A stretch of 64,000 bases of DNA, taken from Candidatus Brocadia sinica JPN1. Its GTDB lineage: Bacteria; Planctomycetota; Brocadiia; Brocadiales; Brocadiaceae. The position numbers and the translations under genes are program-made. Location: the NCBI RefSeq assembly GCF_000949635.1, contig NZ_BAFN01000001.1:3345052-3409051 (forward strand), given 5' to 3'. Each line of letters starts with the position of its first letter. Positions within the stretch are counted from its first letter, which is position 1. Below are positions 10,231 to 61,690 of this stretch, piece after piece. Below the pieces are notes generated by a model, which worked only from the letters and a program-made list of their open reading frames with translations, did no database searches and was not told where the DNA came from.

Positions 10231-10366
10231 ATTTCGATAAGGGCAAACCCTGAGTAATCAGGGGACGCAAAGTAAAGGGTCTTTAAACATACAGGGAAGT
10301 AGTTTAAACAAGATAGCCTTACTGCCGAAGATGTTTTTATGAATATCTTTGCAGTAAGGCTTTTTT
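10231..10366 (+). promoter_or_regulatory. cyclic di-GMP-I (GEMM-I) riboswitch with terminator, copy 1
   Basis: The aptamer shows the GEMM-I landmarks in order: GGGCAAACCC, a hairpin with a GNRA tetraloop (CCTGA-GTAA-TCAGG), GGGACGCAAAG, AAAGGGTCT, then GCCTTACTGCCGAAG. The 3' strand AGCCTTACTGC (from 10315) also pairs with GCAGTAAGGCT followed by T6, an intrinsic terminator ending about 10366. Aptamer folding and terminator are mutually exclusive, which suggests an ON switch for the gene starting at 10395. Ligand identity (c-di-GMP rather than cGAMP) follows from the family and is not proven. Confidence 0.85.
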
Positions 10367-20226: not shown

Positions 20227-20278
20227 AGTATGAAGTTTCAATAATGGTTTTTACGAAGTAGTGCGGTAAAAGAACATT

Positions 20279-20436
20279 ACGATAAAGGCAAATCCTGAGT
20301 AATCAGGGGACGCAAAGTAAAGGGTCTTATCAGTTGTTTAAACAGTTTAAGCCGTTTAAACTGTTTAAACGGCTTACGAAGAGACAGCCTTACTGCCGAA
20401 GATGTTTAATAAATATCTTTGCAGTAAGGCTTTTTT
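20279..20436 (+). promoter_or_regulatory. cyclic di-GMP-I riboswitch with terminator, copy 2
   Basis: Landmarks: AAAGGCAAATCC, GNRA hairpin CCTGA-GTAA-TCAGG, GGGACGCAAAG, AAAGGGTCT, and GACAGCCTTACTGCCGAAG at the 3' side. The variable arm holds a 13-bp perfect palindrome, AAGCCGTTTAAAC/GTTTAAACGGCTT. AGCCTTACTGC (from 20386) is shared with a terminator hairpin ending in T6 at about 20436. The next gene is the Sec-rhodanese at 20606, with a small hairpin (GGGCGTATTG/CAATACGCCC, about 20531) between. Confidence 0.85.
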
Positions 20437-20605
20437 GTTTGGTTTTTCAGTAATTGAGTTTGATGACTATAGTCTTTTAACCAGGAATATTTACGATTTA
20501 GGAGATATATATTTTACAAAGAGAAGTAGGGGCGTATTGCAATACGCCCTAAGAAGCCTTTTTATTCTTACCCCGGCAACTTTTAGAAAGAATGGGAGGT
20601 GTATT

Positions 20606-20926
20606 ATGGCAGAACCCGTACGTATTACTCCGAAAGAAGTTTACCAGAAGTTGAAATCCGGCACAACGCTCCTCGTCTGCGCATATGACGACGAGACAAC
20701 ATTCAGGCAAATGAAACTGCAGGGTGCGATTTCGCTGCACGAATTTAAATCAAGGTTACCGTCATTATCAAAAGATCAGGAGATTATCTTTTACTGCGGC
20801 TGACCCAAAGAAGCGAGCGCTGCCGGTCAGGCAGCGGAATTCATAAAGAAGGGATATAAGAATACAAAGGCCCTTGATGGAGGCGTTAATAGTTGGAAAA
20901 AGGCGGGCTATCCTATCGAACCGTAA
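20606..20926 (+). CDS. rhodanese-domain protein, probable selenoprotein (Sec66)
   Basis: ATG at 20606 follows GGGAGG by 6 bases. Reading TGA at 20801-20803 as selenocysteine gives one continuous 106-residue single rhodanese domain: IIFYCGUPKEASAAGQAAEF, then the typical rhodanese end LDGGVNSWKKAGYPI, stop TAA. Without recoding the protein stops after 65 residues, just before the active-site loop is complete. Cys64 sits at the usual rhodanese cysteine position, with Sec66 two residues later (C-G-U). The related family often has C-A-C-P here. A SECIS-like hairpin lies 14 bases after the TGA. It may act as a sulfur or selenium transferase or a thiol redox protein. Riboswitch copy 2 is upstream, and another Sec gene is 240 bases downstream. 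Confidence 0.85.
20818..20836 (+). promoter_or_regulatory. SECIS-like hairpin in the rhodanese gene
   Basis: Perfect 7-bp stem CGCTGCC/GGCAGCG with loop GGTCA. The loop starts 21 bases after the TGA. E. coli fdhF has the loop GGUCU and a similar placement, so both geometry and the loop G residues fit SelB recognition. Confidence 0.85.
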
Positions 20927-20952: not shown

Positions 20953-21103
20953 CAGACTAGGTCAAATGAACTTTTTTGCTTCAAAAGTGAGTAAGAACTG
21001 CTATAAATTGCCATTTTTTGCGCTTGTTTTGTCGCTTTTTAACCCATAAAGCGGGGAATAAATCTCACGAAATAGGGTGAAATTGCCCATTTGACCCAGT
21101 CTG
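20953..21103. repeat. 151-bp inverted-repeat-ended element between two Sec genes
   Basis: The ends are CAGACTAGGTCAAATG (20953-20968) and CATTTGACCCAGTCTG (21088-21103), complementary at 15 of 16 positions. There is no ORF inside. It could be a MITE-like insertion or a large RNA hairpin base. No clear target duplication. Confidence 0.55.
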
Positions 21104-21163: not shown

Positions 21164-21733
21164 ATGGAAAACAAAATTATATGGGAAACAGGAATGGACA
21201 ATGCCCTATCAAGGGCACGATTGGAGAAAAAGCCAGTGTTACTTGATTTCTTTAACCCAGGCTGAATCGGATGCCAACAGATGGATACAGTTTCGTATCC
21301 AAATAAAGACGTTACCGAATTTATCAGAGATTCTGTAATTCCACTGCGCGTGCGCTATGATACGCAGCCCCTTGCTACGGATTTTAGTATAAACTGGACT
21401 CCAACCCTTATAATTCTTGATATGGAAGGCAAAGAACATCACAGGGCAGTCGGTTTTCTTTCTCCCGAAGAATTGATGCCTTTGTTATTGCTGGGTATTG
21501 CAAAAGTTCATTTTGACCACAATGCATTCAAAGAGGCGTTTTCAAACCTGGAGAAGATTTTATCTGATTTTCCTAAAAGTGACTCAGCACCGGAGGCAAT
21601 TTATCTGAAAGGTGTATGCTTATACAAAGATACGAAAAATCCAAAAGGACTTAAAGAGGCATACGAACAACTTCAGGCCAGGTATCCTGAGAACGAGTGG
21701 ACAAAGCGGGCATATCCCTATCGGCTTTTATAG
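21164..21733 (+). CDS. thioredoxin-like protein with TPR-like C-terminus, probable selenoprotein (Sec34)
   Basis: ATG at 21164 follows AGGAGGG. Reading TGA at 21263-21265 as Sec gives 189 residues. The active site LLDFFNPGUIGCQQMD places Sec34-Ile-Gly-Cys37 where thioredoxins have C-x2-C, and the cis-proline region follows as WTPTLIILD. Residues about 105-185 (KVHFDHNAFKEAFSNLEKIL, later PEAIYLKGVCLYKD, WTKRAYPYRLL) look like a tetratricopeptide-type helical repeat. If the TGA were a stop, the product would be 33 residues with no active site. No signal peptide is seen, so it is probably cytoplasmic. The partner is unknown. The Sec-rhodanese gene just upstream is an obvious candidate. Confidence 0.87.
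21282..21301 (+). promoter_or_regulatory. SECIS-like hairpin in the thioredoxin-like gene
   Basis: 7-bp stem TGGATAC/GTATCCA with a 6-base loop AGTTTC. The loop starts 23 bases after the TGA. A G is at loop position 2, which meets the usual bacterial SECIS rule of a G in the first two loop bases. Confidence 0.78.
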
Positions 21734-59908: not shown

Positions 59909-60062
59909 AAAAAAGCCTTACTGCAAAACATGTTCATTGAAAAACATCTTCGGCAGTAAGGCTGTCTTTTTTCGTCAAGGTATCCTTCAACTACATCCGT
60001 GTGAATTTAAAGACCCTTTCCTTTGCGTCCCCTGATCACTCAGGGTTTGCCTTTATCGTATG
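59909..60062 (-). promoter_or_regulatory. cyclic di-GMP-I riboswitch with terminator, copy 3
   Basis: On the minus strand: ATAAAGGCAAACCC, GNRA hairpin CCCTGA-GTGA-TCAGGG, GGACGCAAAGGAAAGGGTCT, variable arm, GACAGCCTTACTGCCGAAG, then terminator arm GCAGTAAGGC with T6 (59909-59914). The next gene on this strand is the BNR protein, which starts 866 bases away. Insertions probably separated them. No strong promoter was seen upstream. Confidence 0.85.
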
Positions 60063-61532: not shown

Positions 61533-61690
61533 AAAAAAACCCTACTGCAGAGTTTACAGTAAACATCTTCGGCAGTAAGGCTGTCTCTTCGTAAGCCGTT
61601 TAAACAGTTTAAACGGCTTAAACTGTTTAAACAACTGATAAGACCCTTTCCTTTGCGTCCCCTGATCACTCAGGGTTTGCCTTTATCGTA
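61533..61690 (-). promoter_or_regulatory. cyclic di-GMP-I riboswitch with terminator, copy 4
   Basis: Minus strand: ACGATAAAGGCAAACCC, GNRA hairpin with loop GTGA, GGACGCAAAGGAAAGGGTCT, then a variable arm that matches copy 2 for about 50 bases (the GTTTAAAC-rich palindrome), GACAGCCTTACTGCCGAAG, and terminator arm GCAGTAGGG plus T7. The LuxR-type gene starts 107 bases beyond the terminator. Confidence 0.85.

Follow-up and report, generated by a model that had tools for sequence, protein, structure and literature searches.

A hairpin shortly downstream of an in-frame UGA in a small rhodanese gene very probably makes a Brocadia-type anammox bacterium read this stop codon as selenocysteine (Sec), as predicted from a comparison with relatives in several phyla. 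Our full explanation comprises a bacterial SECIS element (bSECIS) directing Sec66 into a rhodanese-fold redox protein, a neighbouring gene for a Sec-containing thioredoxin and transcription gated by a riboswitch, and we assign it a probability of about 0.93.

A predicted Sec-containing rhodanese

The window, which is the whole 64-kb stretch of DNA that we analysed, corresponds to contig positions 3345052-3409051 of a 4.08-Mb Brocadia genome. Its nearest named relatives, Candidatus Brocadia sp. AMX1 and Ca. B. pituitae, place it among the anammox planctomycetes. An ordinary ORF finder cuts both selenoprotein genes of the locus short at their UGA. The following features were annotated for the first of them:

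20606..20926, + strand: coding sequence of a predicted CxU rhodanese-fold selenoprotein of 106 aa (C25, C64, U66), based on translation with TGA as U, the Pfam Rhodanese family and a structural model
20801..20803, + strand: UGA codon for the predicted Sec66, in frame and shared as TGA by 78 distinct genes that entered the hairpin test
20818..20836, + strand: bSECIS hairpin with stem 20818-20824 / 20830-20836 and loop GGTCA at 20825-20829, based on complementarity, conservation, covariation and codon shuffles
20820-20824 / 20830-20834, + strand: conserved core of this hairpin, based on the comparison of relatives

With TGA translated as Sec, the protein reads MAEPVRITPKEV...KDQEIIFYCGUPKEASAAGQAAEFIKK...GYPIEP. 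It matches Pfam Rhodanese (PF00581) with 41.7 bits (cut-off 22.2), and its AlphaFold model (pLDDT 89.6) has E. coli GlpE as the best match among solved structures (Z 16.6, 2.2 A over 103 residues). Residue 64 occupies the catalytic position of rhodaneses and Sec66 follows two residues on, while C25 provides a second, nearly invariant thiol. Active rhodanese sulfurtransferases carry a loop of the CX4R type, with an Arg five residues past the catalytic Cys. The active-site loop of the window protein, C64-G-U-P-K-E, has Glu in place of this Arg, which suggests that it is more probably a redox protein for thiols or persulfides than a classical thiosulfate sulfurtransferase. Most likely, the rhodanese would act as a thiol/persulfide oxidoreductase or as a sulfur carrier that cycles via a C64-U66 S-Se bond. 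Both C25 and the neighbouring Sec thioredoxin are plausible partners, and the latter may recycle the rhodanese.

The hairpin within the coding sequence

The original prediction placed a stem-loop, CGCTGCC/GGTCA/GGCAGCG, 14 bases behind the TGA. These coordinates were confirmed and the stem is fully complementary; the accompanying statement that the stem doubles as coding sequence, read as S-A-A-G-Q-A-A-E, was likewise correct. The published bSECIS model describes an apical loop of 3-9 nt that begins with two G, an upper stem of 4-16 bp and 16-37 nt from the UGA to the loop (PMC13188914). The rhodanese hairpin agrees with these rules in its loop of 5 nt, its stem of 7 bp, the GG at the start of the loop and a UGA-to-loop distance of 21 nt. 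No Rfam family matched over the hairpin at gathering score.

Hairpins of this general shape also arise by chance: among the 2375 TGA trinucleotides on both strands of the window, 30 are followed by a perfect stem of at least 7 bp whose bSECIS-like loop lies 16-37 nt behind the TGA, although only three of these loops start with GGT. Synonymous shuffling of the window gene retained on average 4.97 of the seven pairs and all seven in 3.4% of the draws (P = 0.034). Since the protein sequence (A-A-G-Q-A-A) alone yields about five of the seven pairs, the evidence from the single sequence is weak and only mildly surprising, and the relatives have to decide. The same null result lends some credit to the view that the stem is a by-product of a conserved Ala/Gly-rich helix start (S/A-A-G-x-A) together with GC-rich codon use rather than a selected RNA, a view which we nevertheless regard as very unlikely in the light of the comparisons below.

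Conservation and covariation in relatives

For the comparison, we used 14 Brocadiaceae genomes, public genomes from outside this family and two phylum-wide samples. Together, they supplied 78 distinct genes for the hairpin test, all with TGA at the aligned codon and with readable sequence behind it. Outside Brocadiaceae, the TGA form occurs in Desulfobacterota (Geomonas, Desulfofustis, Syntrophaceae and others), Nitrospirota, Acidobacteria, Synergistaceae and another planctomycete. A search for Sec-type relatives devoid of the stem, proposed along with the original prediction, revealed that 77 of the 78 genes keep at least three contiguous pairs counted from the loop and 74 keep at least four; contiguous stems of 5, 6 and 7 bp are present in 26, 22 and 21 genes, respectively, and a single gene (L069) has no pairing beside the loop in this register. 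All 78 loops open with GG, and 56 of them carry GGTC.

The hairpin had been described as a near-ideal, fdhF-like SECIS with a perfect 7-bp stem. The SECIS of E. coli fdhF has a bulged U in the stem beneath its loop. A perfect 7-bp stem does exist in the window, but as a general form the description does not hold, as only the inner 5 bp are conserved across the 78 genes. The outer two pairs vary, with a Ser codon TCN in many relatives where Brocadia has GCT, which leaves a non-pairing U just beneath the 5-bp core in 20 of the 78 genes, at roughly the position of the fdhF bulge. Taken together, this marks the perfect stem of the window, as judged from the alignment, as a local variant rather than the ideal form. 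With E. coli fdhF and the bSECIS consensus the hairpin shares the GGUC loop, its location shortly 3′ of the UGA with the loop 21 nt behind it, and sizes within the model (PMC13188914); it differs from fdhF in its perfect stem, which lacks the bulged U beneath the upper stem, in the conserved core of 5 bp and in the 5-nt loop. "Near-ideal" and "fdhF-like" were overstated: GGTC is the consensus of the family itself, the bulged U is absent and the outer two pairs are local.

Covariation, the other check that had been suggested, is present. In the first 40 genes, the covariation score was 0.195 compared to 0.114 after shuffling, with none of 500 shuffles reaching the observed score, and 85% of the cells were paired in the true register versus 20-51% in slid registers. 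If the stem were a mere by-product of protein sequence and codon preference, synonymous redraws with the codon usage of each locus should reproduce it; instead, they fell far short (177 +/- 6 pairs, maximum 194, against 239 observed in an earlier, smaller set). In the larger set, protein-preserving codon shuffles gave 4.48 pairs per CxU gene compared to the 6.00 observed (z 12.7; z -11.3 for dG), and z was 6.4 for the genes with TGA at both motif positions (UxU, see below). The covarying pairs include one that consists of two synonymous positions, namely the last base of codon 72 and that of the Ala76 codon (window 20821/20833, alignment columns 21/33), both of which are synonymous when the residues are Ser/Ala and Ala. 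In the 78 Sec genes, this pair is T-A in 50, C-G in 20, G-C in two and non-Watson-Crick in six, i.e. 72 are paired where about 20 would be expected, and the two bases switch together on the tree, which also argues against a by-product of coding. Phylogenetically independent contrasts across well-supported branches typically gave six changes in the same direction, none in the opposite direction and two undecided (median sign test 0.03, range 0.03-0.125), or 16 contrasts if weak branches were admitted; the underlying protein tree has 106 columns only and many of its forks are open. As stem and loop persist in 78 genes, the synonymous pair switches coordinately and the codon-shuffle z reaches 12.7, the SECIS reading of the hairpin is well supported.

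Cys-containing homologs, intended as a negative control, gave a mixed picture. A group of 17 closely related CxC homologs of the Nitrospirota sister clade (L153-L169) keeps a GC-rich stem at the SECIS position (z 7.0), possibly as a relic of a Sec-containing ancestor or as an effect of codon use. This fits the notion of a coding by-product, and the stem alone is therefore not diagnostic of Sec. We thus dropped the absence of the stem in Cys forms as a general argument. Two divergent Brocadiaceae homologs (L031 and L032), which have TGC at the Sec codon and come from genomes without SelB or tRNA-Sec, do lack the stem, and the absence of stem and pairing in L031, a CxC gene in a SelB-less genome, speaks against the by-product view.

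Reading of the UGA and selenocysteine machinery

The own genome of the window encodes SelB (378.8 bits), tRNA-Sec (67.8 bits), SelA (561 bits) and a SelD of the Sec type, which itself has an in-frame TGA in TCGGUAGK. Among 33 Brocadiaceae genomes examined, all 14 with a TGA rhodanese possess SelB or tRNA-Sec, and none of the seven with neither SelB nor tRNA-Sec has the TGA form at the Sec codon; as some of these genomes are incomplete, absence of the machinery is approximate. Along with the conservation and the covariation at the synonymous pair, this machinery upholds the original SECIS reading. During translation, SelB-GTP with Sec-tRNA-Sec would bind the apical loop, which has the consensus GGUC and lies 21 nt behind the UGA at 20801-20803, and Sec would be delivered in place of termination to yield the 106-residue rhodanese-fold protein with its C64-G-U66 motif and the thiol C25.

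The possibility that the TGA is a true stop or an assembly error, leaving a truncated or pseudogenised rhodanese, appears highly improbable to us, and more so than a coding by-product. Two copies would suit it. The one of Ca. B. pituitae (L027:1440-1800) is interrupted by TAA codons in the N-terminal half and by its sequence looks like a decaying gene, although it retains the TGA, the stem and the downstream Sec thioredoxin gene. In L032, the preceding Cys codon is also a TGA; the Sec machinery was not found in that genome, and we take this TGA as a stop or an error. However, a stop or an error is difficult to reconcile with 78 distinct genes from several phyla sharing a TGA at this codon, with the Sec machinery being present and with the conservation of the protein 3′ of the UGA, where G93 is invariant and W97 and G101 are conserved in at least 90% of the relatives. 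UGA read-through occurs in general, so that the codon could be read as another residue such as Trp, or termination could be leaky, with no Sec involved. We give this equally little weight, because the codon aligns with a Cys of the CxC homologs, the hairpin obeys the published bSECIS rules and genomes with the TGA form have the Sec machinery.

A second predicted selenoprotein gene and a riboswitch

In the neighbourhood of the rhodanese gene, we annotated the following features:

20278..20401, + strand: c-di-GMP-I-GGC (GEMM-I type) riboswitch aptamer, RF03167, cmscan 63.5 bits (gathering 59)
20386..20431, + strand: predicted intrinsic terminator that serves as expression platform and shares sequence with the aptamer on its 3′ side, a hairpin of -26.7 kcal/mol (z -8.0) followed by T6
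20953..21103, no strand: MITE-like repeat with imperfect 16-bp terminal inverted repeats between both selenoprotein genes, based on repeats in the genome
21164..21733, + strand: coding sequence of a predicted UxxC thioredoxin-like and TPR selenoprotein of 189 aa, based on family matches and on adjoining the rhodanese in relatives
21263..21265, + strand: UGA codon for the predicted Sec34, in frame and kept as TGA by Brocadiaceae orthologs and paralogs
21282..21301, + strand: second bSECIS hairpin, TGGATAC / loop AGTTTC / GTATCCA, based on covariation

The neighbouring gene would give rise to a UxxC thioredoxin-like/TPR selenoprotein via its own hairpin, which changes in concert from GGATAC-AGTTTC-GTATCC to GGGTAC-CGTGAC-GTACCC; the third pair of its 6-bp core is A-T in 18, G-C in 10 and G-U in one of 29 distinct sequences. 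Like other Sec thioredoxins and thiol:disulfide interchange selenoproteins (PF13098, UxxC), the protein has a Thioredoxin_2 domain with UxxC, but it differs from them by an additional C-terminal TPR and by its location next to the rhodanese. The two genes are adjacent in L018, L021, L023, L027/L048, L029, L030 and L019/L047, and among the loci examined the thioredoxin-TPR gene adjoins the rhodanese in Brocadiaceae only. A diverged group of Sec-containing paralogs of the thioredoxin-TPR gene is also found across Brocadiaceae; some genomes carry them in tandem, for instance at G030:C214.

The TGAs of the two genes are 462 bp apart in the window compared to 248 bp in most relatives. The MITE-like repeat, with its terminal inverted repeats CAGACTAGGTCAAATG / CATTTGACCCAGTCTG, is missing between the two genes in relatives, where these lie 214 or 145 bp closer. 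It occurs in seven places of its own genome, with four other copies at 91-93% identity.

Upstream of the rhodanese, the aptamer overlaps an arm of the terminator hairpin, from which we infer that the riboswitch is an ON switch. Aptamer and terminator would together probably gate transcription of the two genes in response to a cyclic dinucleotide, provided that these are co-transcribed. The same overlapping arrangement is found in L027. Matches to RF03167 directly precede the rhodanese in L019/L047, L020, L021, L027 and L030, and one lies about 1 kb before it in L029, whereas RF03167 was not found in L022-L026 and L028 at E <= 0.001, nor by the rhodanese of relatives outside Brocadiaceae; the riboswitch is therefore not a general partner of the rhodanese. 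The 64-kb window contains four c-di-GMP-I-GGC riboswitches in total (10233-10330, 20278-20401 and, on the minus strand, 59948-60060 and 61567-61690). A match to mir-4680 at 20379-20440 was discarded as a chance match to the terminator hairpin.

Relation to known families and UxU relatives

A 2026 review lists CxU rhodanese selenoproteins as Rhodanese-like selenoprotein form 3 (NF041203, rhodanese_LYCAU), with one Sec for that form (PMC13188914), so this kind of selenoprotein is already known. NF041203, which shares the rhodanese fold and the YC-x-U motif, ranks first among the NCBIfam models for the window protein and likewise for the relatives tested. However, the window protein scores 67.1 bits and the five or six tested relatives of its clade score 47-71 bits against a cut-off of 115, and two UxU members of the clade reach 63.7 (L052) and 53.1 bits (L068), whereas the members proper, L138 and L139, score 115-116 bits and are placed in a sister clade. 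Moreover, the window clade has a signature of its own (LVCAY...KDQEIIFYC[AGN]U) and includes UxU members. Its scores stay below a cut-off that members of the sister clade pass, which makes it a separate, uncurated subfamily. The rhodanese/DsbD fusion-like selenoprotein TsoB (NF045694) has the associated domains and weakly matches both genes (rhodanese 20.6 bits, thioredoxin 41.6 bits); yet these values are far below its cut-off of 805, and the window has two separate small genes with CxU and UxxC rather than UxxxxU.

In 14 distinct genes (L052, L065, L068, L072, L074, L122, L131, L140, L145, L146, L147, L148, L150 and L152), TGA is present at both positions of the CxC motif. All of these except L152, which is placed beside the sister clade, fall inside the window rhodanese clade, and changes between CxU and UxU occurred at least 10 times on the tree. 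In the UxU genes, two UGAs precede one hairpin, the first 27 nt and the second 21 nt from the loop, and SelB is present in 5/5 UxU genomes tested. The UxU frame of L052 (L052:2950-3756), with the TGA read through, runs on into a putative YHS-like domain. We found no mention of UxU rhodaneses in the literature covered by our search, and the term "UxU" is absent from the review (PMC13188914); an earlier description is possible. On balance, we lean towards a scenario in which the clade moved repeatedly between CxU and UxU, with one hairpin serving two UGAs six nt apart and thereby Sec at the catalytic and the +2 positions; in Brocadia, the CxU form would be paired with a Sec thioredoxin under a cyclic-dinucleotide riboswitch, linking second-messenger signalling to selenoprotein synthesis in anammox bacteria.

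In those parts of the literature on anammox and selenocysteine that were covered by our search, no description of anammox selenoproteins was found. With the present locus, anammox bacteria gain two well-supported selenoprotein genes as a pair. The rhodanese hairpin furthermore represents a clean case of one stretch under selection both as coding sequence and as a SECIS, beyond the needs of the protein and visible at paired synonymous sites, and the UxU relatives make it possible to test how a single SECIS can serve two UGAs so close together.
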